This document shows, in pieces, positions 1,745 through 63,706 of a DNA stretch of 64,000 bases. The translations under genes were made by a program, and so were the position numbers. The stretch is from Tubulanus polymorphus (Eukaryota; Nemertea; Palaeonemertea; Tubulaniformes; Tubulanidae). Positions within the stretch are counted from its first letter, which is position 1. Each line of letters begins with the position of its first letter. The notes under the pieces were generated by a model. It worked only from the letters and a program-made list of their open reading frames with translations, ran no database searches and was not told the DNA's origin. The stretch spans positions 229,501 through 293,500 of the forward strand of contig NC_134027.1 in NCBI RefSeq assembly GCF_964204645.1. Direction: 5' to 3'.

Positions 1745-4700
1745 TTACAAACTCATATGAAATGTGTTTTCTTTTAATTCAGGAACATTTGCAGCCAGTT
1801 GTTCGGTAGAGTTGAAATGTGTTTGCCAAACTAAAGTTCGTCTTTTCCTCATTTCTTCGTTCAATGAATTGATATAAGACTTCAGCTCCGGATCCCAAAC
1901 AGTGACGCAACCATAGTTAGAAACTGAAATATCATACAATATATACAGTGATCGTTTAAGTCGTGATAAGTCTATTCCGCAATTTGTATTTCTGATTCAA
2001 ATTACTAAGTGTAAGTCATCATCAACACAAAGATCATCTCAAATATGACGACTTATAAGAGTTTTAGACTATATCTTATCACAAGAAAGTGCTTACAATC
2101 AGTTCCAGTTCGAGTGCTGTCTATAGCGCCGTGATAACCCATCCCACTGACTAGAATTACCGAAGATATCGTCGGTACGCTCTCTAAAAAATAAACAAAC
2201 AAAAAAGAAATATAAATTAAAGATATTTTTGGCCTTTTACTCAGAACTCAAGGAGAGGCACATCATATTCTGACAACTTTTCTTCAAAGTAAAGCAATAG
2301 AGGATCTGTCTTAACCTAGTGTTGAATCAATAAACCGAGACTGTGTAATCTTTTATAACGTGCCACATTACTTTATCTGCAATTGTCTATGTATATTATG
2401 TATATTTGGTTTGTTTGGTAAACTAGGAATGAATGTGAATTGGTGTATATGTCTGTGTGTATGTGGGAGTGTATGGACGAGGGATTAGGACTAGATTAAG
2501 CCAACTTTGGCTTCTCCTAATTCCTCGCATAATTTATTGGTATATTGTTTTCCATATATTGTGTATTCATTTGAAAACTCTGTAACAATCGTTTATGCAA
2601 ATAAATCATATCATATATCATATATCATATATCATACGTCATACGTCATACGTCATACGTCATACGTCATACGTCATACGTCATACGTCATTATCATTAT
2701 CATATCATATATCATATATCATATCATATCATATATCATATCATATATCATATCATATCAAGATGGATAAGACTTTATAGGTAACTTGTTTATAAAGTAC
2801 GAGCTTCCTTACTAGTGTATTGTAGCTTCATCAGGTGAATGATTGAATAAGTGTTTTATAAGAATGTAGCCATCGCTATTAGCAAACAATGTATTGAAAG
2901 TTTAGCTCTTTTTTACCTAAACTATTCATCCTTCTGTAAAAAAGATCCTTTGATGATTTCAGGTTTAGTTTTCTTGCCGGCATTTCGATTCTGCTACCTA
3001 TAAAATGACAGACCACATTCATATTTTCTCTGGCTTCAACGAGTGAAAATAGACTTTCTTCAATATTGCGAACAATGGGTTAAAATCGATCTTTTAGTTT
3101 AAAAAATCGATGTTTTAATTCAGCTGCCGATCATGAATTATGGCACCCGACTTCTCTGCAAACAAGTTGAAATAGATATAAGTGTATTTTGTTTAATTCA
3201 CCTGTAGTTTTGACTTGAACTATTGATCTGATTGATGATGTATGTCTATGTATGATCCCGATACAGTGATGTGTAGCTGGGTTAATCAGTACGATATGAC
3301 CCCCTCGAGTCCCGATCCACAGACTCGTAAAATCCTGTAACATCAACGTCGATACTTGTGTAGCCGTTTGAATGTTCTTCAAATTCTTCGAATTAAATCT
3401 AAAATAATAAAGTACAAAACTACAAAAAGTTAACATCGTATGAAAATTAATAATCAACCTGACCAGAAATCCAGATGAAAATAAAATTGAATCGCATTTT
3501 CTCAAACGGACCTGACAATCTCCTGAATGTCGATAACACTGCTTCGTTTGATTTTGAGTTTCTGTAAAGATTGGACGGACCAAACCTCAACGACGGAACT
3601 ATGCATTTTACCGATATACAAATCATGACCCATCACCATACATGTGATCAGATTTCTGAAAAGAATGAAGAAAATGCAGCACAAATTTTGAAACATAAGA
3701 AGATATTAAAGGCTACTCAAGAACACGTTCACTGGCGGCTAAGAGTAAACTCATATATCTGGCTCATCGTTACCACTTCTAGTTGGCACATGGGAATGAC
3801 ACATTTCCTGATTGGACGGCTATGAGAACAAACTCTGTCATTAATTGGTCAATTTTGAGCAAAGGCTGACTATGTAACAGCTCCAGTGCCAACCTTCAAG
3901 TACATTAGTGTGGCACCTGGGGGCAGCACCGTATCATCAGGGTGACAGTGAACTGTCGACTTACGGTAGATTTTGATCAGTATCCCACATATGTTTAATA
4001 TCATACGACTGACTGGTCAACTCTTCAAATACTACAACATGACTTCCACACGACGCGTAAATCAAACCGTTGTGATAGAGAAGACATCGCACTGGGGTAG
4101 AGTTTCCGGGTAGAAGCTGAATATAATAGGGCTCAATAGTTGCACTCTGAAATATAAATTAAAAAAACTTAAATGTGGAACTGGATCCAAGAGCTGCACG
4201 ACTCAGTTCTAGTTAAATGATATAGTCCGTTTGTAATCACTTTTTGCAGGAGTCAAATTTTAACGTATGGAACTTGGGGATGGGGTGGCTGGATGAGGGG
4301 AGGGGAAGTGGCTCAGCTGAATGACATAAAGTTTTATCAGTCATAATACCACAATGACGAAACTTGAATGAAATGTTGAGATTGTTGTTGAGTTGGGCCC
4401 GATTGGGTCTGATTACTTACAGTAAGAAGTGTAGCAGTATCATATACAGCCAGGTAACCATTTGCTAAACCAGCTAGAATTAAATCCCTCGCATCATGAC
4501 TAAAAACAAAACATAAAACATCTGAATTATTATCTAAGTTCCATAGTTATAGACCTAAGAGTCAAACAAGAATAAAACAGATACCCTGAACCTGCGAAAA
4601 CAGATAGTTTAAGAATTGTGCGGATAGCTGCCCCTTTTAACTGTATGCCCTTTTCATTTGTTTGTGCTCCTGTCAGAGTCTGCCCTGGCTGCCACTGGAT

Positions 4701-5442
4701 CTGCCCCTGGACCCGGCCCTGGATGCGGTCCTGTTTCCGCCCCTGCCTGGATGCGCCCCTGGATGCGCCCGTGGATCTACCCCTGTTCAGAGATTTCAAG
4801 AATTCTATTCAATTGAATTAGATCATGATTATATCTACCTTGTATAGTGTAACAATGAAATAACAGCGTCTGGAAGTGCATCCATTGTATGTCTGAGTTG
4901 ATGTTCCCAGGCATCGTAAACTATAATGTGACCGACTTCGTTTGCTTGAACTCCGACTAATACAGCCGTCTGTCTAACAGTACACATACACCAGATTCGA
5001 CCATGTCTTTGCGGTTTAGGTAATATCATTCCCTGCGAAATAAAACCCCCCAAAAAAACTTGTCATTCAAACCCAAACATTCAGAAATTATAAAACACCA
5101 ACTACTAGGCTAGGTCTAACTGTACGGTCATGCCTCAATTCATTTTCTAAGGCCAGGAGTCAGTTTCATTAGACCAGTCTAAAGCCATGGAATGAGATCA
5201 GTCTTACCTCATTACAGTCCTATAACTAATCTTATTGAACTATAAGTCTATTCAAACCTAAATCTAGATAACCACACTCATAGAAGTATTCTCAGTGTTC
5301 GTAGTAACTCTTAATAAAACAAGTGAATTGTTCAAATAACCTTGATTTCTGATTTACTGTCAGTAAGATTGACCCAGGATAATTGAGAGTGACCTCTCTC
5401 TCCGCTGCCAAACCAAGCTTCCACTAACTGATCCTCATGTCT
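1745..5442 (-). CDS. LRRK2: LRRK2 exons 54-61: C-terminal WD40 propeller and tail
   Basis: Exons: 5341-5442, 4839-5032, 4421-4499, 3965-4146, 3512-3655, 3202-3398, 2097-2183, 1745-1923. Human-like landmarks in order: AWFGSGERGHSQLSW, ILAGLANGYLAVYD, SSVVEVWSVQSLQKL, SLWIGTRGGHIVLIN and, in the last exon, GCVTVWDPEL, followed by a charged C-terminal helix with EEMRKRRTL, as in human LRRK2. The tail runs about 20 residues longer than human. The last junction is a split codon (2097/1923). In the family this propeller mediates dimer and membrane or microtubule contacts. I looked for one more exon between 2183 and 3202 and the alignment does not need it. Confidence 0.94.
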
Positions 5443-8400
5443 CTACAAATATAAACTCAAACAATTCACTCACATACCAGGGCTAGTAGCATCTGATGTC
5501 ACTTACAGGCTTGTAGCATATGTAGTTAATCCTAACCCTGTCTATGAACCAGGGCCCAGGTTGTGGATTTATCGCAGACCCAGCCAAAAACATAAAACAT
5601 CCTTTGATATATGACCTATTGCTCCTCCCCTCCCGTATGATTGACAACTTACCCTCACAGCGATACATTCAACAGCTAAATCCTTCGATACATACATCAC
5701 TCGCTTCAGAGACACAACCTCAGCACAATTCAAACAATCATAGACTTCAGCAGCCTACAATTAAAAATAAACAACCTTAGACTGACGCGGTCAGTTGTGG
5801 ATGACTCCAGATCCAGTTTGGGATGACTCCAGATCCAGTTGTGGATGACTCCGGATCCAGACTACTCTGGTAGCTGTTAACTTACTGTCAGTCTTTTATC
5901 AGGATCTTCTTTAAGACACGTATCAATAACGTCCTCCATATCGGGCCACGGTTCTTGTCCTTTGCTTGTGATCGGGTTGATTGGTCTTTGCTACAAATAC
6001 ATCATAAACAACTTGATTATGTTATGTTTACATCAAGGGCTGATGTCAATGTAAACGATTAAGTGCTTAATCTCAGAGCCAGTGATTGAAGCACTAGGAC
6101 TGCAGAACAGCAATCCAAGTTTATCAATCATTATCCTCCAGACTCTATTTGTGGGACCAATCAATTCTCTCTGGGGTATGCGAATACCAGTCGTATCAGG
6201 ATGAATTAGAGCAAGAAAATTTGTTACATATTGACGGGCAGGGCACGAGATCGACTCCCGGGGTAAACAGGATTCTGATATATTTCATGAACTGACCTCT
6301 AGAACTGCAGCATCGAGTTCAGCTCGACAGATTAATTCCTCAAACGGATGATGACCTCCAGTAACGAGTGTATAAAGAGTGATACCCAGTGAGTAAACGT
6401 CTGCCTGGTATGTGTAAGTCTCTTCACGAGCTACCTCTGGTGCCTTGTATCCAGCTGTACCCTCCGACGCGTAAAACCCATACGACGCCGCAAACCGAGC
6501 TATTCCGTAATCTGTGATCTTAGCATTCACCTGAAATAAACAAATCATAACTCATAAAGCTGGAACATGATCCAGGACTGGGGAACTGGGTTCTGAGTAT
6601 CACAAAAACTGAAATATTTAACGGGTAACTGCCTCAAAGATTATTTATATGAAATGCATAAGAGTCTCTCATACTTACGACAACATTCAAAGACAAACTG
6701 AAGATAAGAACATTGTCTGGTTTCATATCTCTATAAATGATTTTATATTTCTGTAAATACATCAATCCTTCGGACACCTACAGAATAAATACATACACAA
6801 AATAAGAGCAAAATCTGGAAGTGACCCAAGGTAAATCTAACTCATAACTGTGGAATTGCGACCAGAACTGTGGAACTGGATCTAGAACTGTAGATCTGGG
6901 TCATGAACTGTGTAACTGGGAACACAATTGTGGAACTGGGTCTAGAACTGTGTAACTGGGACCAGAATTGTGGAACTGGGGTAGAACCGTGGAACTGGGG
7001 TCAGAATTGTGGAACTGGGTCTAGAACTGTGTAACTTGGACCAGAATTGTGGAACTGGGGTAGAACTGTGTAACTGGGACCAGAATTGTGGAAACGGGTC
7101 TAGAACTGTGTAACTTGGACCAGAATTGTGGAACTGGGGTCAGAATTGTGGAACTCTATCCTGAACTGTAGAACTGGATCCAGTACTGTAGAACTCAATC
7201 GCGAATTGTGGAAGTGGATCCAGAATTGTGGAATTGTGTGGTGGTGGATTATTGATAATACCTGTGTAGCAATTCTATGCATCAAGCGTCTGCTCAAAGC
7301 TCGTCCTGTTTTCAGTAGTCCACCGAGTGAACCGAGTGGAGCTAGTTCTAGTAGTATAACCCTCGGTCGCAGTCCGACCGCTAACATCTCGATTAAACTC
7401 GGGTGTTGCAGACGTCTGAGGATTGTTACTTCCTGTCTCATCATCGTATGTGGACTAACATCACCGACTTTATTAAACACCTTCACAGCTACCGATCTAT
7501 CTTTATACGTGGCTCGGTAAACTGATCCGAAACTACCTTCACCAATACGAGATTCATTACTGTAAAATATTCAATATCTTTTACTAGAAATATCTTACAG
7601 AACAAACCTCCCCTCCAATCACTCCTCCCCTGTACCCCATCCTCCCCTCCCTCCTTCCCTGTACCATCCATCCTCCCCTCCCTTCTTCCCTGTACCATCC
7701 ATCCTCCCCTCCCTTCTTCCCTGTACCCCATCCTCCCCTCCCTCCTCCCCTGTACCCCATCCTCCCCTCCCTCCTCCCCCTGTACCCCATCCATCCTCCC
7801 TCCCTCCTCCCCTGTACCCATCCTCCCTCCCTCCTTCCCCTTTACCCCATCCTCCCTCCCTCCTCCCCTTGTACCCCATCCATCCTCCCTCCTCCCCCTG
7901 TACCCCATCCATCCTCCCTCCTCCCCCTGTACCCATCCATCCTCCCTCCTTCCCCTGTACCCCATCCTCCCTCCCTCATCCCCCTGTACCCCATCCTCCC
8001 TCCTCCCCCTGTACAGGCTGGAAGAGATTCACTACATTGATACTTGAAGAGAATCTTTTTTTTGAATTTTCTAATAAAATAAATCGCAGGTGCACAAGTA
8101 CATGCTATACACAGAACAATTGTACCAAGTTTCATCGAAATACAACAAAAAGGAGGTGTTGGTGTCTTCCTGGATGGACAATATCTCCATGGCAGATTCC
8201 ACAAACAACTAATCTAACAATTCATGATTCTGATCACGGAGTTTTTGTGAATAAGTCAAAATAGAATCGAAATCTTGAACAGAAAATGAGAAATTCAATG
8301 ATTTACTTGTTTTGCTTGTTGTATTGAGGTGAATGTAGATTGTTGTTTATTTTCTACAGTTCAAATAGAACTTACTTTGGCAAAAAGGTGAAGTAATCTT

Positions 8401-20400: not shown

Positions 20401-23400
20401 AAATTTAGAAAAAAAAAAAAACAGGCGGCGGCTAAATTAGGAGGGGAGCTGTTGGGAATCAAAGAAATTTATTTCTATGGCCTTATTAAAGTTCCAGTTG
20501 TTCAGCTGGCTACTGGCGCGTATTCAACCCGGCAGTAGAACCTTTTCATTCAACTTCTATAAGCTCTCAATGTAAATCTATTCAACAATAGAGACACAAT
20601 TGCGGCTTTTCAGAGTTGTTGATATCATTCTGACACGCGCTATTGAATACGTCACCGGCTGACCACGGTGTACACAAGCATAGACCATTCACCTCTGCAC
20701 ACTCACACTGTGAACATGCTACCGTGGATTCTCCTCCTGGCGCTCCCGCTCCTGCTCCTGCTCCTGTTCCTGCTTCCTGAGGAACGACGTCTTTATGTTT
20801 TATGTGTTACTGTTCGTCTCCGTGCTGTCCTGTACTGTTCCGTGTTTATTAATCCGTTCTATTTTTCAGCAATTAACCCGTTTTATTTTTCAGGGCCGAT
20901 TTCTCTGTCGAATTTCAACGTTTGCTGGAACAAAACTAATGTCCGAAAGCGTCGGCTCTCCTTCGCCGGTCATGTGTCGAGGATGTCAGACAAAGAGTCG
21001 GTCAGGAAATTCTGCCCTCTACACGCCCTCATACGGAACACGAAAACCAGGATGACGAGGCCTCACTGCCCCCACCTATCTACAAAGTGTGCTGAGTGAT
21101 GTCAATGACAGGCATATCTGTGAGATTGCGCGGGATACAAATGGAGCGGTTATACTGGATTGTCACGCTACTAGCATTCATTGTGTCCTTGTGACCGCCC
21201 GGATGAGGGATGATTCTACTGTCACGCTCTTTGTTTCTGGTATTCTGAGTCGGCTGAGGGATGATTCTACTGTCACGCTCTTTGATTTCTAGTTTGAGTG
21301 CTAGTTTTCATTGTGTCCTTGTGATAACCCCGGTCAGTGGATGAAGTCTCTCGTCGGCTTGTGAGTGCTAGTTTCATTGTGTCCTTGTGACAACCTCGGT
21401 CAGTGGATGAAGTCTCTTGTCACGCTTTTGGGTGCTAGTTGAGATCCTGAATCTCAACCCGGTCCAGCTGGTTGTACTGCGCTATTTGTGTTTCGTGCAA
21501 TTTTACAGGTTTGTCAGTTACTGACGTCGCCCAGTACATCCTGCAGTTAGATGGGGAATGTGAGGCGTTGTCATTCTGGTTTTCGCGTTCTGTGTGAGGG
21601 CGTGTAGAGGGCAGTATATTCCTGGCTGGCTCATTGTCTGGTGTTCTCGGCATGTGACCGGCGACGGAGAGCTGAAAAGCTTTCGAACATTAGTTTTGTT
21701 CCGTACCAGGTTTTCATCGCTCTTCTCTTTTTTTTTCATTTCAGGACTCCCAAGAAGTTGAAGAAGGAGATGCTAGAAGGCGACTACAGAAGATGCCGAA
21801 AAAAGAATAGTGAACTCTTCACAATCTTGAAAGTTAAGTTGATTCACATGTAAATTAGGATTAATGATGAAGAAATGTGTGACTACAAAATGTTTTTCTT
21901 TTTCTCAATTTCAGCTTCGACGAAACCCAAGAAGACAAAGAAGTACTTCGATTTTGAAAAAAATGATGTAAAATCGACCGACGATCACACAACTATATCT
22001 GTACTTCGATTTCGAAAAAAAAAATTAGACAAAATTATCTTCAACCTTGTAAACTTTCGGACTACATGAAAAAAAAGACCAAATATTGTAAAATTATCGA
22101 AAAAAAATTATGTAAAATCAACCGACGATCACACAACTATATCTGTACTTCGATTCCCGCCTGTTTCGCTCCTGGCAGGTGTGTCACGATCGTAAGGGAC
22201 ACCAACTCAAAAAGTTGAACGAGAGCTCATCAACTAAGATCTGCCGATTAGAGAACAGTGCACAGAAGGGGCCAATTTGGATGAAACTCAACCAACCAAC
22301 TTAGGAGAACCCAGCCATCATAAAAAGTAATTTGATATTTGATATGAACTTAGAACATTTTAACGGATACTGAACCGAGCAAACTTGAAATGTAAGTTGA
22401 TTTTTGGCGAACTTTATGTTTGCCTACGCAAATGGTCTGGAGAAGCAGTTTTCATTGAAAACGAATAGAGTACCGGTGTGTCAACAAGGCACAAACATTG
22501 GCTGTTGAACCAATAGTGTTGATTTTGGTGTCATGGTTTGGCTTAATGAGTTCTCGAGCCCACAAAAATTTCATAGTGATCGAGTTATAGTAGGGGACTT
22601 ATTCTTGAAAAACACGTAAAAACCTGCTTTTTAGCACTAAGTAATGGCACGTTTTCATATATGAGAATTTGCTTACTTGGAATTGAAATATATAAAAATC
22701 CAATCCTTCCTGGAAGTGTTGCCATTTTTTGTGTGACTCATCTCGATGTACTTTTCGACCTACAGGTCCTCACTTTATAAACCCCAAAAGTTTTCTAGCT
22801 TCTATTTATCTGAGTTGACCTCATTACCTGAGCTACATTGAATGTGATTGGCTGTTTGTTGGATAAACCGGATATTCCGGGAACTTCTGATGTAATTGGG
22901 AAAGCCCATTGGGAAAACCCAATGTGGAACCCAAAACCAAATGGCGATAATTATAATTTGTTCGGTTTTACGAATATAACCAAGTAGGCTATTCTAGGTA
23001 TATTATTTATGGAAATTATTATGATAAATTCTAAATGAAATATTATGTCATTACAGGATATCTTCTTTTAATCATTGCAGCTAAATTTCAACTATGAGAA
23101 AAACCCAGTTTGAGATCAACTACTCGCCCAAAATCGACCAACTGGAACAGTGCTCAGATGAGGCCAACTACCTAACCAACTAATAGGATAATCGCCGATA
23201 ACGAACCAAGCAATCATTAAAGGTAACTTGATATATGTGGAATTATGTCGATAAATTCTAAATGAAATATTTTGTCATTACAGGATATTTTTGTTTGCTC
23301 ATTTCAGCTAAATCCTATCTATATGAAACTGCCAAGCTTTAAATCAACGACTCATCAAATATCTACAGATAAGCTCTGCCCACTGAACGATCCAAGCTTG

Positions 23401-45200: not shown

Positions 45201-45269
45201 TTTCAAGGATTTCGAAAAATATCGAATTATTGCCAGCTCTGTAAATATCGATAAATCACTGTGTTTCAG
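42251..45269. other. Region upstream of the first SLC41A coding exon
   Basis: AT-rich. The first coding exon starts after a clear 3' splice site (45260-45269), so at least one upstream exon should exist here. Candidates are an exon-like stretch at 43482-43661 (ACAG/GG acceptor-like start, donor GTAAGA) and an open frame at 44161-44331 ending at GTAAGT, whose phase does not fit the coding exons. A possible 120-bp inverted-repeat element (TACAGTAAACCT ... AGTTTACTGTA) is at 44756-44876. Confidence 0.4.
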
Positions 45270-45323
45270 ATAACTGTAAGTCTACTGTGGCAAGTGAAGT
45301 CGAGTATTTCATCAATAACAACA

Positions 45324-48300
45324 ATGGCTACTACCGTTACCACGAGCAACGATAACAATCGGTCGTCATCATCGATAGCAACCGTACGAAAACGTAGAAA
45401 AATGGTTCCTAGTTTAAACGTAGATGGCAGCACCGTCGGTGTTGAGCAGACGGACAAAACAACGTCCGCAAACATCGAAATCGAAACGGATTATAAGAAA
45501 CTCGAAGACACTGAAAACAACGAAATCACCGCGGATACAACGCCATTGTTGCCGGTTACTAATGACGCTCACTCTGGTAACCATGGTGATAACGATGATG
45601 ATGATTTTCAAATGAAACTGGCGACGCTTGAAAATGAGAATTCATGGTCGATTTCATTACAAGTTTTTATACCATACGTTATAGCAGGATTCGGTACAGT
45701 TGGAGCTGGCATGGTGCTAGATATAGTACAGGTAACTCTCCCCCTCCCTCCCCACCCTCCCCCACCCCTCCCTCCCCCTCCCTCCTGGGTCGGGAGCTGG
45801 CATGGTGCTAGATATAGTACAGGTTACTCTCCCCCTCCCTTCCCACCCTCCCCCACCCTTCCCCACCCCTCCCTCCCTCTCCCTCCTCCTGGGTCGGGAG
45901 CTGGCATGGTGCTAGATATAGTACAGGTAACTCTCCCCCTCCCCTCCCTCCCCCTCCCCTCCCTCCCCCTGGGTCGGGAGCTGGCATGGTGCTAGATATA
46001 GTACAGGTAACTCTCCCCCTCCCCATCCCCTCCCCCTCCCCTCCCTCCTCCTGGGTCGGGAGCTGGCATGGTGCTAGATATAGTACAGGTAACTCTCCCC
46101 CTCCCCATCCCCCCTGCCCTCCCTCCCCCTGGGTCAGGAGCTGGCATGGTGCTAGATATAGTACAGGTAACTCTCCCCCTCCCCATCCCCCCTGCCCTCC
46201 CTCCCCCTGGGTCGGGAGCTGGCATGGTGCTAGATATAGTACAGGTAACTCTCCCCCTCCCCATCCCCTCCCCCTCCCCTCCCTCCTCCTGGGTCGGGAG
46301 CTGGCATGGTGCTAGATATAGTACAGGTAACTCTCCCCCTCCCCATCCCCCCTGCCCTCCCTCCCCCTGGGTCAGGAGCTGGCATGGTGCTAGATATAGT
46401 ACAGGTAACTCTCCCCCTCCCCTCCCCCTCCCCTCCCTCCTCCTGGGTCGGGAGCTGGCATGGTGCTAGATATAGTACAGGTAACTCTCCCCCTCCCCTC
46501 CCCCTCCCCTCCCTCCTCCTGGGTCGGGAGCTGGCATGGTGCTAGATATAGTACAGGTAACTCTCCCCCTTCCCCTCTCCTCCCCTCCCTCCCTCCTCCT
46601 GGGTCGGGAGCTGGCATGGTGCTAGATATAGTACAGGTAACTCTCCCCCTCCCCTCCCCCTCCCCTCCCTCCTCCTGGGTCGGGAGCTGGCATGGTGCTA
46701 GATATAGTACAGGTAACTCTCCCCCTTCCCCTCTCCTCCCTCCTCCTGGGTCGGGAGCTGGCATGGTGCTAGATATAGTACAGGTAACTCTCCCCTCCCT
46801 CCCCCTCCCCTCCCCTCCCTCCTGGGTCGGGAGCTGGCATGGTGCTAGATATAGTACAGGTAACTCTCCCCCTCCCCTACCCCATTATGTCTTACCTTTA
46901 GTTTATCATAAACGACAAATGAATTTTTAATTGATCCCAAATTCATTGTGTTCACAGAATTCAATCACATTCTCAATCAGTCAATGATTTAAATATGAAA
47001 TAAATGCGGTGATGTGTTTCTGCTGATCATCACTGGGAGTCATTGAGTCCCAGTGAGTCTCTTTGTCAGTCTAATAGTCATAGAGTCATATATATAGAGT
47101 ACTGTGTAGTTATTCCCAGTAGTGACATACGGCAGGTGTATCAGACATTTTTAGACAAATAAAAAATAATAAATGTACCATACATTCACCTAGAACTCTT
47201 AATGTACGCGTGGATATGAATGTGATATTGAAGCAACTGAACAAAGATAATATCAGTGGAAATATTTATTTTAGTATTTTCGAAATTGGTTATAATTTTA
47301 ATAATTCAACTCTGTTTTGTGGCGGTGAATCATTGATACAGTTTGCAGCAGTTAGTTACAGATGGTGTTCAGGATTTACATTTTAAAACCTAAAACCTCG
47401 CGAACTGAATATTATTGAATATTATTTGTGTCAGCTCTTGGTATGTTCCGGTTAGGGTTTAAACCACGTGGGATTTATCTACGTTTCAATCCTGTTCACT
47501 CGTTGCTGAAACCGTTTCGAATTTGGCAGTTGTTACGAGTTTTTGAATATTTACGGTTTGATGAGAATAATGTTTGGACAGTCGGAGTTCAAGTTTTTGT
47601 ACCGTTTGTTTTGGCCGGTTTAGGAACAGTCAGCGCTGGTATCATTCTAGATATAGTACAGGTAGTTACATTATAGTTACAATGTTAGGAATACCGGGAG
47701 CCGGTTCCGCAGTTAACTTTTAAAGTTGTGAAATTGATAAATAACTAAATTAATTCTGATTTAAACATGAACTGCATGAAACACTAAACCCTGTTTCACA
47801 GTTAGTTTCAATAAATTGAAAATGAATTCAAACTTAATCAGATTTAACCTGGAACTGTGGAAGTTGATTCTGGTATCTCAAACATATATCATGAGGATAT
47901 TTACCCCAGTTTATGGATCCAGGAAGGTTTAGACTGTAAAAACTCTGACTTGAGAATGTGATGTGATATGTGTTTGATGGTATCATAAATATAGTCAGAA
48001 GTAGTCTTTGAGTTAAACAGTTTCTTTCTGAGTTTGTTCACATGTAACTGTCAATGATTCTATAACAAATGCATGTTTTGTTTATTTTCAGCATTGGGAA
48101 GTATTTGATGTAATTTCTGAGATTTTTATATTAGTACCAGCCTTACTCGGTCTGAAAGGAAACCTAGAAATGACTTTAGCTTCGAGATTATCGACACAGG
48201 TAAAATATATGAAATATCACCTCAATATTTCATTGCTGTTCCAGATATTTCTCTAATTGCTTGTGGTATTTTTAGGCGAATTTAGGGAAAATGGACTCGC

Positions 48301-51300
48301 CTAAAGAGAAATGGTTGATGATTGGTGGAAATATGGCTTTAATACAAGTAAGTGAATTCATTTAAAAGAACACCAGGACTCGTTTCAGTAAGGAGTCAGT
48401 TCAAGAAAAACTCACTTCAGTAAGGAGTCAGTTCAGTAAGGAGTCAGTTCAGGAAAGACTCACTTCAGTAAGGAGTCAGTTCAGGAATGACTCAGTTCAG
48501 TAAGGAGTCATTTCAGTAAGGAGTCAGTTCAGGAAAGACTCAGTTCAGTAGGGAGTCAGTTCAGTAAGGAGTCAGGTCAGTAAGGAGTCAGGTCAGTAAG
48601 GAGTCAGTTCAGTAAGGACTCACTTCAGTAAGGACTCACTTCAGTAAGGAGTCAGTTCAGGAAAGACTCAGTTCAGTAGGGAGTCAGTTCAGTAAGGAGT
48701 CAGGTCAGTAAGGAGTCACTTCAGTAAGGAGTCAGTTCAGTAAGGACTCACTTCAGTAAGGACTCACTTCAGTCAGGAGTCAGTTCAGGACTCTTAGAGT
48801 GAAAATTAGTTCATTTCAATGTTGAAACTCCCTGAGTCAACTACTTAACAAGACCCTCTGCTCTATTTCAAGTTTCTAAAGTAGTTGAATTTATTATATT
48901 TTCAGGCTCAGGCTATAGTTGTGGGGTTTCTAGCGTCAATGGCTGCTATGATATTCGGTTGGATTCCTAAAGGAAAGTTCGATATTGATCACGGTTTATT
49001 ATTGTGCTGTAGTAGCATCGTAACTGCATCAATAGCAAGTCTTATCTTGGGTAAATATGATTCTCTGGCCGGTCAGCGGATACTGTGGATCAGTTCCACT
49101 TCAGACTGATTGAGTTCAGTTCCACAGCGGACTTACAGTCGACTCATTGTGTTTGTTTTTATATATTTCAGGTGCTATAATGATTTTAGTTGTATTAGGA
49201 TCTCGTCAATGTAAGATCAACCCTGATAATGTAGCTACTCCGATAGCCGCCAGTCTCGGAGACGTTACAACATTGAGTCTCCTCGCTGCTATATCTGGTG
49301 TACTTTATCACGCAATAGGTACATGAGTTTTAAATTCCAATCTCCAGCACCAAACCACCAAACTTCTGCCGTTTAGACATCTTAGGGTTTGGAAGTGAGC
49401 TGATTAAGCGTCTCAGGTGAAGCACTGAACACATGTGAAGTGTGGACAATCAGTTTTTGAAAGTGCGCTGATAAAATGTCTAATATCTGGTGTTTGTAGT
49501 TCATTTTCAATTAAAAATGTCTCAGGTGAAGCACTGAACACATGTGAAGTGTGGACGATCAGTTTTTGAAAGTATGCTGATAAAATGTCTAATATCTGGT
49601 GTTTGTAGTTCATTTTCAATTAGAAATGTCTCAGTTGAAGCACTGAACACATGTGAAGTGTGGACGATCAGTTTTTGATAGTGTGCTGATAAAATGTCTA
49701 ATATCTGGTGTTTGTAGTTCATTTTCAATTAAAAATGTCTCAGGTGAAGCACTGAACACATGTGAAGTTTGGACGATCAGTTTTTGATAGTGTGCTGATA
49801 AAATGTCTAATATCTGGTGTTTGTAGTTCATTTTCAATTAGATGAAACACTGAACACATGTGAAGTGTGGACTATAGCACTGTTTGATATCATTGTATGT
49901 AATTATAAGTAAACAGGTCTGGTTGTATAATTTCAGGTAAACAGGTCTGGTTGTATAATTTCAGGTAAACAGGTCTGGCTGTCTCCCGTGATTATAGTAT
50001 TTTTTCTTGCTTTGATTCCTGTATTTTGTGTAATATCTGCTAAGAATCGTTACACCAGTGAGGTGATTTATACGGGCTGGACGCCGGTCATCTCAGCTAT
50101 GGTAATCAGCAGGTAAGCATTATTCATCTCAAATCTCTGAAATACCTCCAGTACTACACGTGCAGGATGAAGTCAATTACTGATCAGGAAAAAAGTATTT
50201 TTATAAATTCACTGAATCTCTCTCTTGTTTTCATACATTTACAGCATTGGAGGGTTAATTTTAGATTTCACCGTTGAGAACTTTCACGGCATAGCCGTTT
50301 TCCAACCAGTTATAAATGGTAAGTTGTATGTTGTGAGTTGTATGTGGTGAGTTGTGAGTTGTATGTTGTGAGTTGATGAACAATTTCATTTTACTGTAAA
50401 CTCAGACTCAGTAATTTTCAACAACTCAAACAAAAACTGATTTCCTTTTATCTCATATATCACTTGTTCTGGATTCAGTTTGTCAGCTGTATTTATGATA
50501 CTGTTATATATTATGTTTGATTGTAGGAGTTGGCGGTAATTTAGTCGCTGTTCAAGCAAGTCGTTTATCCACATATTTACATCAGATCAGTAAACCCGGT
50601 ATATTACCTGATCATATACCGCGTGGTTGTCCTAATCCATTCAAAGTTTACTGCCATTCTGGTGAGTTACTACCACTACATCTATATTCACTGTGGCCCA
50701 TTCTCTTCCATTCCCTGCTACATAGTCAGTCCATTCACTGTCACCCATTCTCTTCCATTCCCTGCTACATAGTCAGTCCATTCACTGTCACCCATTCTCT
50801 TCCATTCCCTGCTACATAGTCAGTCCATTCACTGTCACCCATTCTCTTCCATTCCCTGCTACATAGTCAGTCCATTCACTGTCACCCATTCTCTTCCATT
50901 CCCTGCTCCATAGTCAGTCCATTCACTGTGGCCCATTCTCTTCCATTCCCTGCTACATAGTCAGTCCATTCACTGTCACCCATTCTCTTCCATTCCCTGC
51001 TACATAGTCAGTCCATTCACTGTCACCCATTCTCTTCCATTCCCTGCTACATAGTCAGTCCATTCACTGTCACCCATTCTCTTCCATTCCCTGCTACATA
51101 GTCAGTCCATTCACTGTCACCCATTCTCTTCCATTCCCTGCTACATAGTCAGTCCATTCACTGTCACCCATTCTCTTCCATTCCCTGCTCCATAGTCAGT
51201 CCATTCACTGTGGCCCATTCTCTTCCATTCCCTGCTCCATAGTCAGTCCATTCACTGTCACCCATTCTCTTCCATTCCCTGCTACATAGTCAGTCCATTC

Positions 51301-53150
51301 ACTGTCACCCATTCTCTTCCATTCCCTGCTACATAGTCAGTCCATTCACTGTCACCCATTCTCTTCCATTCCCTGCTACATAGTCAGTCCATTCACTGTC
51401 ACCCATTCTCTTCCATTCCCTGCTACATAGTCAGTCCATTCACTGTCACCCATTCTCTTCCATTCCCTGCTCCATAGTCAGTCCATTCACTGTCACCCAT
51501 TCTCTTCCATTCCCTGCTACATAGTCAGTCCATTCACTGTCACCCATTCTCTTCCATTCCCTGCTACATAGTCAGTCCATTCACTGTCACCCATTCTCTT
51601 CCATTCCCTGCTACATAGTCAGTCCATTCACTGTCACCCATTCTCTTCCATTCCCTGCTCCATAGTCAGTCCATTCACTGTCACCCATTCTCTTCCATTC
51701 CCTGCTACATAGTCAGTCCATTCACTGTCACCCATTCTCTTCCATTCCCTGCTACATAGTCAGTCCATTCACTGTCACCCATTCTCTTCCATTCCTGCTA
51801 CATAGTCAGTCCATTCACTGTCACCCATTCTCTTCCATTCCCTGCTACATAGTCAGTCCATTCACTGTCACCCATTCTCTTCCTTTCCCTGCAATCGCTT
51901 GATTCTTAAGATAATGATACAAAAGAGCATCTGTGGTAAGCATTGTCTAAATAAGCTCTACACAAGTTGTCGACATTTCCAGCCTCCCATTCCTTCCAGC
52001 CTCCCATTCCTGCCTCCCATTCCTGGTACTGTATAAGAACTATCTTTTCTTTGAAAATAAATTCAAATTTCTTCAATCTCGATATGAGTATTAACAATTC
52101 TGAATCGAGTTCCGCAGTTTTTGATTGAAGTTGAGCTCTAAGAGTTCTAACAAATTTCCGGTCAAATCTCAGTACTGTGGAACTCTGGTAGAACTGCAGT
52201 GAAACTGTTGTGGAACTGTAGTGGAACTGTTGTGGAACTGCGGTGGAACTGTTGTGGAACTGTATATTGAGTTGTATGATTGTATTCTAGGAATCCACGC
52301 TCGAACAGCACGTGTTTTATTAATGATGGTTATTCCCGGTCATCTGATATTCATGTATACGATCTCCTATATGAAAGCTGGTCATACATCTATTACACTG
52401 ATGTTTGCTGCTGTTTATTTAACTGCAGCTCTCCTACAGGTACTTATTATTTATCATTTGCCTTCCCTTGACCGGTGCAAACGGCCTTTATACGGTCTAA
52501 CCTTGTTACTACTACAAACTTCATTGGATCAGAAAGTCTATTCGTTATAACCGATAGTTTGTTGTATCCAGTATGGAATCAATCAGATTGTCTTATATGG
52601 AAAAATTTAACTCAAAATCAGTCAATTATTGATACTCACAACTGAGAAACTATTGTCCCAGTTCCTCGAGACCCAGTTGTGCATTTCTTGGTTAAATCTG
52701 AGTTGAATTAGTTGATTGTTCATCTTGTTTAATAACTCCCTAAGAGTCGAATTGAACTGCAAACTCGGGGCAGGGCCCAGTTTATTCAACGTTTAAACTA
52801 CATCCTAATAGTCATCTTAAAGACTTATGAGATATATATTCACTTTGTCACTAGGATACTACTGTCATAAAGTACGTCAAAAAAGATGATTATGAATCTA
52901 AAAGCCTTGTTTATTTAAACTGAATGAATTGTATTGTTTTGAATAGTATTGATTTGTATTGCAGGTGTTCTTGCTGTTATTTATAGCTAATTGGATGGTT
53001 CACTGGATGTGGAATCAAGGCGACGATCCTGATAATTTCGCTATTCCGTATCTAACGGCGATCGGAGATTTACTCGGTACAGCGTTTTTAGCCGTCGCGT
53101 TCCAGATACTTTATCTCGTCGGCGATAAAGATTCCGATGTCGGCGATTAA
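45324..53150 (+). CDS. SLC41A: SLC41-family Mg2+ transporter (MgtE-like), isoform A
   Basis: Predicted Na+/Mg2+ exchanger or Mg2+ carrier of the plasma membrane, related to bacterial MgtE. Exons: 45324-45731 (coding part), 48092-48199, 48276-48347, 48906-49050, 49172-49318, 49965-50112, 50245-50318, 50527-50661, 52291-52439, 52965-53150; phases agree, giving 523 residues (human members about 507-573). Residues 1-110 are a hydrophilic, acidic N-terminus. Helix 1 is about 111-136. The two pseudo-symmetric halves show the family signatures [20 protein letters not shown] (about 152-171) with [15 protein letters not shown], and [19 protein letters not shown] with [19 protein letters not shown]. 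The C-terminus DSDVGD is almost that of human SLC41A1. I chose the ATG at 45324 because the same frame runs back into a splice acceptor. Which vertebrate paralogue (A1, A2, A3) it represents cannot be settled by eye. Confidence 0.95.
45700..46872 (+). repeat. Minisatellite made from an exon end and its 5' splice site, 15 copies
   Basis: The last ~30 nt of the SLC41A first coding exon plus its donor (GGCATGGTGCTAGATATAG, TACAG/GTAACTC) and a CT-rich stretch are repeated in tandem, 14 further copies after the genuine junction at 45731. Units are 70-100 bp. Thirteen copies keep a perfect GTAACT donor; one (near 45823) reads GTTACT. Between copies only the CCCTCCC tract length varies. Open frames on either strand across it are by-products. 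Confidence 0.95.
47443..47661 (+). CDS. SLC41A: SLC41A alternative first coding exon (isoform B)
   Basis: An ATG-started exon of 73 codons ending at CAG/GTAGTT. Its last 26 residues, [15 protein letters not shown] plus [12 protein letters not shown], duplicate helix 1 of the upstream exon ([14 protein letters not shown] plus [12 protein letters not shown]) and end in the same phase 0, so either can join the 48092 exon. The upstream parts are unrelated: here [13 protein letters not shown] and a basic, aromatic tail instead of the long acidic one. Isoform B would be 460 residues. Whether it has its own promoter or a 5' UTR exon is not visible. Confidence 0.8.
48362..48792. repeat. ~15-bp tandem repeat in SLC41A intron
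   Basis: About 28 units of GGAGTCAGTTCAGTAA and variants (AGGACTCACTTCAGTA) between exons 48276-48347 and 48906-49050. Confidence 0.9.
49405..49870. repeat. 109-bp tandem repeat, about 4 copies
   Basis: Units contain GAAGCACTGAACACATG, GGACGATCAGTTTTTGA and CTAATATCTGGTGTTTG. Minus-strand open frames across them are the same frame read in successive units. In an SLC41A intron. Confidence 0.9.
49905..49985 (+). repeat. Tandemly duplicated 3' splice site of SLC41A exon 6
   Basis: The 28-bp segment GTAAACAGGTCTGGTTGTATAATTTCAG (split here as GTAAACAGGTCTGG and TTGTATAATTTCAG) occurs twice in tandem before the exon, giving acceptors after 49936 and 49964. Only the second keeps the frame: using the first meets TAA ten codons in. 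Confidence 0.85.
50680..51893. repeat. 47-bp minisatellite, ~25 copies, in SLC41A intron
   Basis: Near-identical units of CAGTCCATTCACTGTCACC plus CATTCTCTTCCATTCCC plus TGCTACATAGT. A few units carry CTCCATAG or GTGGCCCA variants, which recur together, suggesting block duplication. Confidence 0.95.
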
Positions 53151-58500: not shown

Positions 58501-61500
58501 TCTAGGAGTTGAAATTGCTAAGAATGTCGTATTAAGTGGTGTTAAATCAGTTACTATACACGACCAACAGAACGCGAGTATGACTGATCTATCAACACAG
58601 GTTAGTATTAAACATCCCTTCATCCTCTCCCCTGAGAACTCTGTTAACTTAAAAACCCGTCAACTTAGAAACTTTTAAACTCTACAGGTCAGTTCCACAG
58701 TCGAGGGTTAGAGTTAAATTCAGTTCATTTTCTATGAGTTAAAACTCACAATCTTAACTCACAACCGTGGAACTGGATCCTGAGTTCAGAGTTAACTCTT
58801 TAACTCACGTTCTCTATTTGTCAGTGAAATATTAATAAAATTGATTTATTTAACGTAGTTTTTCCTACGTGAAGAGGATATCGGTAAGAACCGAGCTGAA
58901 GTTTGTCAGTCACGTTTGGCCGAGTTGAACAGTTACGTTCCAGTTACAGCTCATACTGATAAACTCACTACTGAATTCATCAGTCAGTTTCAGGTAACGC
59001 ATCGTTTCAACACATTTCATTCTGTTTCAGTAAAACCAGCAAAAACACTGCAGGATTTTATTTGTATTTATTTACAGGCTGTCGTACTTACAAATTCTAC
59101 ATTGATCGAACAGTTAGAACTAGGTGGATTTTGTCACGAAAACGGAATCAAATTCATCGTAGCGAATACTACTGGATTGTGTGGGTGAGTTTACCTCAGT
59201 ATCTCTGTAGCCTCAGTGTGGATGAGTTCGCTTAACATACCAGTGAGAATCCTTGTAGTACCAGTGACTAGATTAATTTTCAGAAGAGAAATAAGATTTA
59301 GATGTTGTGATTTGTTGAGGTTTTGAAGTAGTTGTGAATTTTAGATTTGATTCGATGTTTTATTTTTTCAGTCAAATATTCTGTGATTTCGGTGAGAATT
59401 TCACTGTGTTTGATACAAACGGTGAACAACCGATCAGTAACATGATTGCTGGTATTGATAAGGTAGGCCTCCTATCTAAACAATAACAGTTCACCACCCA
59501 GTAACACAGTTTTAATTTGAAGTATGACGCATGAGAATGATTGAAAATAAACTTTTAACTCAAATAAGAGTCAAATTTGGAGTATAGAACTGGATGCTAA
59601 TTGTAACAATTGAGGGAAGTCCAAGGTGATATGGCAACCTCCCCCCTCACTCCCTACCTCCCACCCCTGTCTCTTAATGCGTCATTTGAGCCAGTTCTCC
59701 AGAAGAAATGATTGCTTGTATCTCTGTGCGTTCTAGGATACAGAAGCTGTCGTCACTTGCCTCGATGAAACCAGACATAATTATGAAGATGGAGATTTTG
59801 TAACGTTCTCAGAAATCAATGGAATGACCGAATTAAACGGCTGTGAACCACGGAAAATTAAAGTACTCGGTAAATATAAAACGTTAAGATATTTGTCATT
59901 CTGTTAAGAGAATAAGAAATTTATTTTCTTTGGAACGAAAGTGATTCCACAACAGGTTTTAGAGGGGTGGCCTCCTCATATTTACATCTATCCCTCTGAA
60001 AATCAAAATCAGCCACCTTCTGCCCCTACCAGAGTGGATGTCAATATTCCATCATATTATTGATGCTGATAAGTGCTTTGAAATATATTCAGCTAATGAA
60101 AAAATAGGAGATTACCAAAATTAAGCTTAATTTCTGTAATTTTTGAGGGATTGAAAGCCTTGGTACAATGTCATACACTGAACAATAAACACAGCCCGTT
60201 TAGAATCCGAGCAGATTGAGAACATTAAACGATAGTTGCTGATGTTTGATTGAATTATTTCAGGTCCGTACACGTTCAGTATCGGCGATACATCGAGTTA
60301 TTCTGACTATGTACGAGGTGGAATCGTGACGCAGGTTAAAATGCCCAAATCATTCAACTATAAATCAATCTCTGAAGCGATGAAAGCTCCGGAATTTGTG
60401 ATGACAGATTTTGGAAAGTTCGAAGCTCCCGGTCAACTCCATATTGCATTCCAAGCTTTAGATGAGTTTCAGGGTCGACACGGACGTCTGCCTAAACCTA
60501 GAAATCAGGTCAGTTATACACAAATATCCACCTCAATTAGACGCGGCGCTTCTCAATGGGTCTGGAACTGGGTTCAGATTCATATCTGATTTAAAATTGG
60601 TATTGAGTCAACAAAATAATATTGAATCAACTGTTCAGATATTCAGGATCCAGTTCCACAGTTGTGAGTTTGATTCAAACTGTGAAACTGGGTCACTCAG
60701 TATTAACAGCAGTATATTATTGTACGTATGGTTATATTTCAGGCTGATGCCGATACGTTTATTGCTGTCGCTAAAGAAGTGAATTCTAAAAGTGAAGCTA
60801 AAGTAGAAGAATTAAACGAGGAATTATTGAAGAAGTTCTCGTTTACGGCGGCGGGTGACGTCTGCCCGGTCGTAGCGTTTATAGGTGGCGTTACTGCACA
60901 GGAAGTGATGAAGGTAAACATTATAGAAATACCGGTAACCTAGTGGGGATCGAGGGATGATTTAATGAATGGCCTGGGAAGCCGTTATGTGATATATTTA
61001 ACGAATGATTGTTTGATATTATTTCAGGCTGTTAGTGGTAAATTTACTCCTATTCAGCAATTCTTATATTTTGATGCGTTTGAAAGTTTACCAGAAGAGG
61101 AAGGAGGAAGTTTAACTGAAGATGATTGTCAACCGGTAAGTTTAACTGGCTCCTCTCTCTCCTCTCACCCTCTCTCCTCTCACTCCTCTCCTCTCACTCT
61201 CCTCCCTCTCACTCCTCTCACCCTCTCTCCTCTCTCTCTCTTCCCTCTCACTCCTCTCCTCTCACCCTCTCTCCTCTCTCTCTCTTCCCTCTCACTCCTC
61301 TCCTCTCACCCTCTCTCCTCTCTCTCTCTTCCCTCTCACTCCTCTCACTCCTCTCCTCTCACCCTCTCTCCTCTCTCTCACTCACTCTCCTCTCACTCTC
61401 TCCTCTCACTCTCTCCTCTTTCTCCTCTCACCCTCTCTCCTCCCTCTCTCCTCCCTCTCTCTTCCCTCTCACTTCCCTCTCACTCCTCTCTCTCACCCCT

Positions 61501-63706
61501 CTCTCTTCCCTCTCTCTTCCCACCCTCGCCTCTCTCCTCTCACCCTCTCTGCTCCCTCTCTCTCTCTCTTCCCTCTCACTCCTCACTCTCTCTCACCCCT
61601 CTCTTCCCACCCTCGCCTCTCACCCTCTCTCTTCCCTCTCACCCCTCTCACTCCTCACTCTCACCCCTCTCTTCCCACCCTTGCCTCTCTCCTCTCACAC
61701 TCTCTCCTCCCTCTCTCCTCCCTCTCTCCTCTCACCCTCTCTCCTCCCTCTCACCTCTCCTCCTTTCGTTGCTCTTTGATATTTCAGGAGTTTTTCTCTG
61801 TATTTTTAGATTGGATGCAGATATGATGCACAAATTGCTGTTTTCGGGAAGAGCTTCCAGGATAAATTAAACAACCTCAAATATTTTGTGGTAAGCGAAA
61901 AACCGGTTTTAACCTTAACCCAGGGACTTACTGTGACAGGGCAGTGGTTTTAACTGATTTTATTATTCAGGTTGGAGCTGGAGCAATAGGTTGTGAGTTA
62001 CTAAAGACATGTGCAATGGTAGGAATTGGAGCGAGTGACTCCGGCTGTGTTTATGTTACCGATATGGATATCATTGAAAAATCAAATCTCAACCGACAGT
62101 TTCTATTCCGATCTCACGACGTTCAGGTCAGTTAAAATTCGGTTGAATTCGAATATTTAAACCGTCGTTGACTGTCGTTATTTCAAAAAAATGATTGATT
62201 TAATTTTACAGAAATCTAAATCATCGACAGCAGCTGCAGCCGTTAAAGTGATGAATCCTAACATGAATATCGTCGCTCATTTAAACCGCGTCGGGCCGCA
62301 AACCGAGAAAGTATACGACGATGAATTCTTTGAGAATTTGGACGGTGTCGCGAACGCACTCGATAATATTGACGCCCGTAAGTTATAAAGAGTTCCTATG
62401 ACTCCTTGATTCCGTTTAAATTCCTTCTTAATGGAAAATCCTTTGAAATACATGCTTTAACCTCCTTTAATTCCAACAGAACGCCAGAAACTCCTTAAAA
62501 TTTTTAAAAACAGGCAATTAGAAATGTCTGTCTAACTCGACTAGCCCTAAATCAGTACAGTTGGGACAAGGATTTTTTACCCGATTAGGCAGAGTTTAGG
62601 TAGAAGTGTAAAGGATAAAAATTTGCTTACAAAACCATTGAATCAATTGTCTACGAGGATGAACAGAACAGATTAGGACGAGTCTACTGTATTTGCGATA
62701 TAAAAATGATGCAGACGCTTCCTCAAAATCTGAAATCTGAACTCTTTACATCTATGTTGGGACCCTGGTTTAGTTTGATGTTGTTAGGTTATTGAGCTGT
62801 ATCTCTCTAACTCAGCTCTACCTGACCTGTGTGTTTGATTAGAGCTGTATCTCTAACTCTCTCTATTCCTGACATGTGTGTTTGATTAGAGCTGTATCTC
62901 TAACTCTCTCTATTCCTGACCTGTGTGTTTGATTAGAGCTGTATCTCTAACTCTCTCTACCTGACCCGTGTGTTTGATTAGAGCTGTATCTCTAACTCTC
63001 TCTTCCTGACCTGTGTGTTTGATTAGAGCTGTATCTCTAACTCTCTCTATTCCTGACCTGTGTGTTTGATTAGAGCTGTATCTCTAACTCTCTCTACCTG
63101 ACCTGTGTGTTTGATTAGAGCTGTATCTCTAACTCTCTCTACCTGACCTGTGTGTTTGATTAGAGCTGTATCTCTAACTCTCTCTATACCTGACCTGTGT
63201 GTTTGATTAGAGCTGTATCTCTAACTCTCTCTATTCCTGACCTGTGTGTTTGATTAGAGCTGTATCTCTAACTCTCTCTACCTGACCTGTGTGTTTGATT
63301 AGAGCTGTATCTCTAACTCTCTCTATTCCTGACCTGTGTGTTTGATTAGAGCTGTATCTCTAACTCTCTCTTCCTGACCCGTGTGTGTATTGTAGGAATG
63401 TATATGGATCGTCGATGTGTTTATTATTGTAAACCACTCCTCGAATCAGGAACATTAGGAACTAAAGGAAACGTTCAAGTCGTAATTCCACATATGACTG
63501 AATCTTATTCGTCTTCACAAGATCCACCGGAGAAATCGATTCCTGTTTGTACGTTGAAGAACTTTCCGAATGCTATAGAACACACCCTGCAGTGGGCCAG
63601 GGATATGTTTGAGGGTTTATTCACTCAGAAAGCTGAAGATGCGCATCTGTACCTCACCGACCCGAAGTTCCTCGAGAGAACACTCAAAATGCCCGGTATA
63701 CAACCG
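55591..63706 (+). CDS. UBA1: Ubiquitin-activating enzyme E1 (UBA1), 3' end beyond the window
   Basis: Activates ubiquitin with ATP and passes it to E2 enzymes. Exons: 55591-55743, 58053-58120, 58432-58600, 58859-58993, 59078-59184, 59372-59462, 59737-59869, 60264-60508, 60743-60913, 61028-61135, 61810-61890, 61971-62126, 62212-62377, 63396-63706; together 698 codons (human about 1,058 in total). The N-terminus has an NLS-like PSKKRKTTT. The inactive adenylation half starts [15 protein letters not shown] with [10 protein letters not shown]. The active half has [12 protein letters not shown] (about 488-499), [18 protein letters not shown] (Asp520, Arg529) and [13 protein letters not shown]. The catalytic cysteine is in [16 protein letters not shown], about residue 646. 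The second catalytic-Cys half, the rest of adenylation and the ubiquitin-fold domain must lie past 64000. Introns are rich in minisatellites. Confidence 0.97.
55926..56443. repeat. ~520-bp foldback element in UBA1 intron 1
   Basis: Long inverted repeat: CTACTGTCTGTCACAC, then GTGCGACGTTTTGGTCCG and TTCGTTAATAATCGGTT, on to TACGCTCGCGTAATGCTGAA, reappear inverted up to 56443. Arms are about 220 bp with scattered mismatches, and the centre (about 56150-56230) is unpaired and holds CACGTGACG. No ORF. The element is non-autonomous; the superfamily is not clear to me. Confidence 0.85.
57335..57715. repeat. 28-bp minisatellite, ~13 copies, in UBA1 intron 1
   Basis: Units of AAACTGTTTGAGTCAAACTG plus TACCCTGT. 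Inside each unit AGTTTGAC and its inverse nearly pair, so single strands could form hairpins. The rest of intron 1 (56450-57330, 57900-58050) shows nothing recognisable. Confidence 0.9.
58687..58780. repeat. Family A inverted-repeat element in UBA1 intron
   Basis: GGTCAGTTCCACAG at the left, ACCGTGGAACTGGATCC at the right, and the CAGTTCATTTTCTATGAGTT core; about 94 bp. Confidence 0.7.
60645..60694. repeat. Minimal family A foldback
   Basis: Only about 50 bp: GGATCCAGTTCCACAGTTG directly followed by AACTGTGAAACTGGGTC. It looks like the two element ends with the core lost. Confidence 0.6.
61140..61785. repeat. CTCTCACCCTCTCTCC low-complexity tract in UBA1 intron
   Basis: About 640 bp of nearly pure pyrimidine on the plus strand. 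It starts right after the 5' splice site of exon 61028-61135 and ends about 25 bp before the next exon. Long open frames over it (Ser/Leu/Pro only) are artefacts. Confidence 0.95.
62780..63392. repeat. ~46-bp minisatellite, ~12 copies, abutting a UBA1 exon
   Basis: Units of GACCTGTGTGTTTGATTAG plus AGCTGTATCTCTAACTC plus TCTCTACCT. The last unit grades into the 3' splice site (TGTGTATTGTAG) of exon 63396-63706, so the polypyrimidine tract of that exon is supplied by the repeat. Confidence 0.95.

Follow-up and report, generated by a model that had tools for sequence, protein, structure and literature searches.

A minisatellite of fifteen tandem 5' splice sites at a first coding exon of an SLC41-like gene: a probably near-neutral mirage

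Tandem repeats that extend across exon-intron boundaries have been described in amphioxus under the name of "mirages", in Adh3 and in the globin genes BflGb6 and BflGb9 (PMC3087553), with TnC also named among them and the repeats of PGBD5 likened to them (PMC3902484). Regular splicing is reportedly undisturbed by such repeats (PMC3087553, PMC3902484): what is known of Adh3 and the globins points to normal splicing, although the amphioxus arrays are reported to be unstable in length (PMC3087553). In human segmentally duplicated genes, variable minisatellites at exon-intron boundaries are reported to result in novel introns and alternative splicing (PMC2812944), and AGGT arrays have been described as acting as dual-specific splice sites in human UBC, VCX3A being named as an analogue (PMC10809524). 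In a model of how introns are gained by tandem duplication, the doubled splice junction supplies new competing sites (PMC3087553). As far as these accounts go, the class of junction-spanning repeats is already known, from at least two chordate groups; a literature search of partial coverage found no lophotrochozoan case. The array presented here was found in a stretch of 64,000 nucleotides, the whole of which is called the window below. In motifs, a slash marks the splice junction.

The SLC41-like gene and its array

Exons A and 2 to 10 of the gene, when joined, encode a protein of 523 aa with two stretches matching the MgtE family (PF01769, E 7.6e-47; Pfam). This bears out the original prediction of the kind of gene, SLC41A, "SLC41" being the label that we take to denote animal MgtE proteins. 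Exons A and B, each searched alone, matched no Pfam family. In the PDB, the full 523-aa protein found no match, and exons A, 2 and 3 together found only two non-significant ones (E 0.82 and 1.9). In a protein search of the genome, all 11 matches at E<=0.001 fell at this locus, with no paralogue at that threshold elsewhere. Exon A may begin at 45270, given the acceptor-like TTTCAG that ends upstream of it at 45269.

Exons 2 to 10 are shared with a second first coding exon, exon B, which is located past the array but ahead of exon 2 and ends, like exon A, in LDIVQ; joined to exons 2 to 10, it opens an in-frame reading frame of 460 aa. Over their last 25 codons exons A and B have 17 identical residues, with nucleotides identical at 20/25, 24/25 and 12/25 of the first, second and third codon positions, respectively, as expected if both exons are constrained at the protein level. 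Judged by their sequences, exons A and B are homologous alternative first coding exons. The array had been placed at the first coding exon of SLC41A, which holds for exon A, but not for exon A as the sole such exon, exon B having been overlooked. If started from a promoter of its own, isoform B would bypass the array. The reading frames of both isoforms are intact, and thus appear compatible with the production of normal mRNA despite the array.

The predicted tandem repetition of exon end, donor and CT stretch, fifteen times in total, was confirmed by the location of fifteen exact 30-nt cores, starting at 45702, 45793, 45897, 45977, 46059, 46137, 46215, 46297, 46375, 46451, 46527, 46607, 46683, 46754 and 46830. 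TRF scored the array at up to 1690 and set its end at 46883. In each unit the 30-nt end of the coding exon is followed by the 5' splice site, then by a tract rich in CT, and lastly by either CTGGGTCG or CTGGGTCA. The core is free of substitutions in all 15 copies, and is directly followed by GTAACTCTC in 14 of them and by GTTACTCTC in copy 2. The donor reads CAG/GTAACT in 14 of the 15, that of copy 2 being the sole variant, and its GT is kept throughout (15/15). Copies are spaced by 71-104 bp, and units differ almost wholly within the CT tract; three of the 14 spacings are divisible by 3 and 11 are not. The statement that every copy carries the AGMVLDIVQ codons stands as regards the identity of the core (15/15), but not as regards the frame of exon A, in which the core lies in only 8/15 copies, a point that is moot past the stop in copy 4.

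Units 4 and 7, units 5 and 8, and units 9, 10 and 12 are identical to each other, which suggests that the array grew in part by block duplication. Changes numbered 0/420 in the core against 3/238 in the non-tract intronic part (p 0.047, with counts entered by hand), two of the three belonging to units 5 and 8, which are identical; this is a weak hint of constraint on, or conversion of, the core. The array contains 14 non-overlapping G-quadruplex motifs on the minus strand and none on the plus strand. A DNA search of the assembly (77 contigs, 267.8 Mb) located it at a single place: of ten matches, 7 lie within it, and the other three, weaker (E 2.1e-8 to 8.4e-4) and located at C7:241162-241290, mainly involve the CT-rich part of the query.

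Table 1. Features of the SLC41-like locus (window positions) and donor arrays elsewhere in the genome.
Feature	Position	Strand	Basis
Exon A, first coding exon of 136 codons, ending in phase 0 at LDIVQ/	45324..45731	+	ORF; in-frame joining to exons 2-10
15-copy minisatellite (mirage)	45702..46883	+	Repeat analysis; genome DNA search
Donor copy 1, presumably the authentic one in use, CAG/GTAACT	45729..45737	+	Consensus match; U1 duplex
Donor copy 2, CAG/GTTACT	45820..45828	+	Sequence; U1 duplex -5.6
Donor copy 3, only decoy with full frame kept	45924..45932	+	In-silico joining
In-frame TAG within copy 4 core	45993..45995	+	Translation
Exon B, alternative first coding exon of 73 codons with its own ATG, phase 0, donor CAG/GTAGTT	47443..47661	+	Homology to exon A; ORF
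Exons 2-10, common to isoforms A and B	48092..53150	+	In-frame joining
Exon 6 acceptor junction repeat, 28-bp unit x2.6, ATAATTTCAG/GTAAACAGGTCTGG	49909..49982	+	
Degenerate repeat from exon 7 donor, TGGTAAGTTG and TGGTGAGTTG	50317..50375	+	
Monoamine-oxidase-like gene (L007), 7 donor copies, exon ..TIDNMAQQ/	C9:283200-286400	-	PDB amine oxidase B chains aligned across junction
Class II tRNA-synthetase gene (L029), 3 donor copies 72 nt apart	C2 ~31.7047 Mb	-	tRNA-synt_2b
Gene with TRPM2-like domain (L031), 8 donor copies	C4 ~21.8327 Mb	-	Pfam
PDZ-domain gene, 4 donor copies			First copy is the coding exon's donor
AAA-domain gene intron (L006), 64-bp array of CAG/GTAACT decoys	C9:15335800-15339400	-	Unit not exon-derived in look

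Donor choice and the products of each donor

The repeated donor matches 8 of the 9 positions of CAG/GTAAGT, which we take to be the donor consensus, and forms a predicted U1 duplex of -8.0 kcal/mol, the ten donors of the gene model ranging from -5.1 to -11.0; 1.6% of the GT sites in the window pair with U1 equally well. With GTAACT in 14/15 copies and predicted pairing within the range of the gene's own donors, most copies retain a putatively usable donor, as the original prediction had it. Predicted accessibility of the 9-nt donor, from local folding, spans 0.006-0.041 when 120 nt are folded and 0.014-0.058 when 200 nt are folded. Copy 1 ranks mid-range in the former and second lowest in the latter, and copy 15 is lowest in both. 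Donor choice by structure was rejected, since predicted accessibility fails to single out copy 1 as favoured, and the choice among copies must therefore rest largely on position.

Such an effect of position is known from minigenes in which two strong donors of the same sequence were set 52 nt apart, and in which exon definition is reported to lead to exclusive use of the upstream donor and intron definition to favour the downstream one, larger exons being mostly skipped when both donors are weakened (PMC9225289). The intron leading to exon 2 has a length of 2360 nt when counted from donor 1 and of 1232 nt when counted from donor 15; taken as exon-defined, it would be spliced from donor 1, with the difference that the minigene exon is internal (PMC9225289) whereas exon A may be a first exon. 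As a separate candidate, each unit was considered as a microexon with the acceptor GGAG/CTGG; this was rejected, with scores of -15.0 to -17.4 in copies 2-6, 14 and 15 and of -0.3 in copy 1, below those of 18 real acceptors.

When joined in silico to exon 2, donor 1 gives the normal protein of 523 aa. Donor 2 causes a frameshift, with a stop that ends 17 nt into exon 2 and a product of 171 aa, and donor 3 adds an in-frame insert of 65 aa, for a product of 588 aa. Donors 4-15 all lie beyond the TAG of copy 4, which stands 11-864 nt before the respective exon end, and yield the same 223-aa product; there is thus no graded series of proteins, and copies past the third add no new one. Stops located ahead of downstream exon junctions generally expose a transcript to nonsense-mediated decay, and transcripts from donors 4-15, in which junctions remain downstream of the stop, should be targets of it. 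The original prediction had a later donor either insert Pro-rich peptide or shift the frame, which would hold for donor 3 and donor 2, respectively, but not for donors 4-15 with their single truncated product.

Repeats at other junctions of the gene and genome

Two further junctions of the SLC41-like gene lie within repeats, the exon 6 acceptor and the exon 7 donor (Table 1), both missed in the earlier account. In the exon 6 repeat, two identical acceptors are found 28 nt apart, and splicing to the first of them, the upstream acceptor, would cause a frameshift. Together with the donor of exon A, 3 of the 19 junctions of the gene lie within repeats, and tandem arrays of period >=10 occupy 15.4% of the window; relative to this coverage there is no enrichment of repeats at SLC41 junctions (one-sided p 0.58). 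Elsewhere in the window, a 24-bp duplication at 20848-20893 doubles an acceptor-like TATTTTTCAG, and large arrays at 61153-61763 and 6842-7233 start about 15-30 nt inside introns without the exon being copied, the adjoining donors being likely ones by eye. Frames on the minus strand at 3131-7570 resemble, also by eye, an LRRK-type kinase and its C-terminal repeat domain.

The genome was searched with two short pattern families for at least three exact donor words at the spacing of the array. Nine loci were obtained, and in 5/9 the first copy is the coding exon's own donor; where several overlapping loci came from one array, one was taken for Pfam analysis. Four further donor mirages in coding genes are present in the genome, in genes of the MAO, tRNA-synthetase, TRPM and PDZ types (Table 1). 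In the MAO-like gene the donor of the preceding exon is also duplicated, in 2 copies 46 nt apart, and the first two 60-nt units of the array are open and in frame when read through. The tRNA-synthetase gene, which we read as "prolyl, mitochondrial", has units that are open and in frame; relative to copy 1, which is attached to the exon, copies 2 and 3 both carry differences at two exonic sites, which are the same in each. Internal stretches of the TRPM-like array still weakly match the Pfam TRPM2-like domain, in other frames. The array in the AAA-domain gene, presumably PEX1, begins shortly after a likely real donor CAG/GTAAAT, as judged by eye. Among the remaining donor-array loci, L005 (C6) and L016 (C1) had no match in Pfam below E 0.9; L020 (C10:1.503M) lies upstream of a 7tm_1 reading frame.

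Comparison of the donor word with the same word read backwards gave 1 v 26, 23 v 4, 20 v 173 and 19 v 138 matches, the second of these, for CAGGTAACT, being the sole comparison that favours the donor word. Altered words gave a similar result, with 19 matches of the donor word against 130 of a GT-to-GA word at equal gaps, and 1 v 24 when the word was altered in a different way. Arrays of the donor word were therefore not in consistent excess, controls being higher in five comparisons and lower in one, with matches inside an array non-independent. The picture is one of random nucleation in a minisatellite-rich genome, and no test run points to selection for the array.

In the same genome, ten homeobox matches at C6:5318231-5634756, all on one strand, apparently form one Hox cluster. 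Six of them were translated, and one shows a Lox5-type tail (AKLNGPNG) and another a Ubd-A-like tail (QQIKELND), which we take to be lophotrochozoan/protostome marks; the genome probably belongs to neither of the two chordate groups from which the class is known. A search by COX1, aimed at the species, gave no match.

Explanations and comparison with known systems

The best explanation for the array, and to our mind a probable one, is that donor 1 is used nearly always and that the array is near-neutral. It would have originated when the 3' end of exon A was duplicated along with its donor and the CT tract next to it, and it grew partly by duplication of unit blocks, in DNA with G-quadruplex motifs in the template strand. 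Since competition between identical donors is won by the upstream one under exon definition, splicing would take place nearly always at the first, exon-adjacent donor, the downstream copies leaving with the intron, and the bypassing of the array by exon B may have contributed to near-neutrality. Any function of the array is most likely nil or slight. The "tolerated accident" mentioned in the original prediction is the better-supported of its two alternatives. Repeats are not enriched at junctions, and predicted accessibility does not favour copy 1. Against near-neutrality, minisatellites at human exon boundaries do change splicing, as reported (PMC2812944), intron definition would act in favour of a downstream donor (PMC9225289), and all donors but one are predicted to be more accessible than copy 1 when 200 nt are folded.

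A rival explanation is dual-specific or recursive splicing, in which each TACAG/GTAACT would serve as both 3' and 5' site and whole units would be removed stepwise, leaving the same mRNA at any copy number; tolerance of every copy number would then be accounted for, and such AGGT arrays are those reported for human UBC, with VCX3A as an analogue (PMC10809524). With a matrix built from 18 acceptors of the same genome, ACAG/GT reaches 6.4, or 7.6 in the case of copy 2, among the 8/15 copies scored, a level of 6 being reached by 3.1% of the AG sites in the window; however, the matrix is small and in part rewards exons starting with GT, and the score falls in the low range of real acceptors (2.5-18.0, leave-one-out). 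The stretch upstream is also pyrimidine-poor (7/16 by hand count; the 18 real sites have 9-13), and a short way upstream there are two further AGs, in CTAG and ATAG. We regard this mode of splicing as unlikely.

A poison-extension switch, in which some exon A transcripts use donors 2 or 4-15 and enter nonsense-mediated decay, so that isoform A is lowered relative to B, is doubtful to a similar extent. The single stop ahead of donors 4-15, the early stop in exon 2 after donor 2, decoys that pair with U1 as copy 1 does (except copy 2) and the position of exon B downstream of the array all agree with such a switch. However, units added after the fourth would no longer alter the product, so that any dependence on copy number would level off there, and no test showed selection for donor arrays. 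A broader proposal, to which we give equally little credence, is that minisatellites repeatedly nucleate across junctions in this genome, here providing 15 candidate dual-specific AG/GT sites, with recursive removal or stochastic donor choice and with copy number tuning the A:B ratio.

That the array is an assembly artefact, the actual number of copies at the locus being one or a few, is very unlikely. Tandem arrays are often mis-sized in assemblies, and this one has been seen in one assembly, but its units differ by indels in irregular order, it lies on a contig of 27.8 Mb, and similar junction arrays exist at four other loci. Least probable is the copy-number-dependent splicing rheostat of the original prediction, producing proteins with different Pro-rich inserts, for which no positive evidence emerged: donor 3 does leave the frame open with its 65-aa insert, but it is alone in this among the 14 decoys, 12 of which (12/15 of all donors) share the truncated 223-aa product, and the insert would directly follow the first predicted helix, where it would probably be disruptive.

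Fifteen near-identical donors behind one exon represent a natural experiment on donor choice of a kind otherwise built as a minigene. Should copy number tune the A:B ratio, a natural allele series would allow the spliceosome's choice among many identical donors to be tested directly in vivo. The class itself being known, the interesting part is the presence of several instances in one probable lophotrochozoan genome, which would suggest that junction-spanning minisatellites are broadly present in repeat-rich animal genomes. Such minisatellites may be a source of alternative donors and possibly of new introns.

Unlike amphioxus, the host looks lophotrochozoan by its presumed Hox marks. Unlike intron gain by tandem duplication, a case of which is reportedly known in potato (PMC4974935), the locus shows no evident new intron or exon. 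The array shares with the human paralogue repeats the position of a minisatellite at an exon-intron boundary, where it may alter splicing; those repeats have units of 30 bp on average, repeated four times, in recent paralogues and with novel introns (PMC2812944), whereas here the gene is at a single locus and no new intron is evident. With UBC and VCX3A it shares an AG/GT in each tandem unit, but the units of UBC are coding monomers (PMC10809524), whereas open, in-frame repeats encoding varied repeat numbers are not what is found here, with units of 71-104 bp, 11/14 spacings off multiples of 3 (3/14 on them) and the stop in copy 4. Compared with BflGb6, reported with 6 and 3 units in two haplotypes (PMC3087553), the SLC41 array has 15 copies and an invariant exonic core. 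Instability and normal splicing are both reported for amphioxus (PMC3087553), and the SLC41 array is known from the sequence of one assembly. As in the amphioxus mirages, a minisatellite unit spans the exon-intron boundary in many copies with splice signals, and both 5' and 3' junctions are affected (PMC3087553, PMC3902484). The SLC41 array thus bears the marks of a mirage: its unit holds the end of an exon and the start of an intron, the splice signals are kept, and copy 1 is contiguous with exon A.
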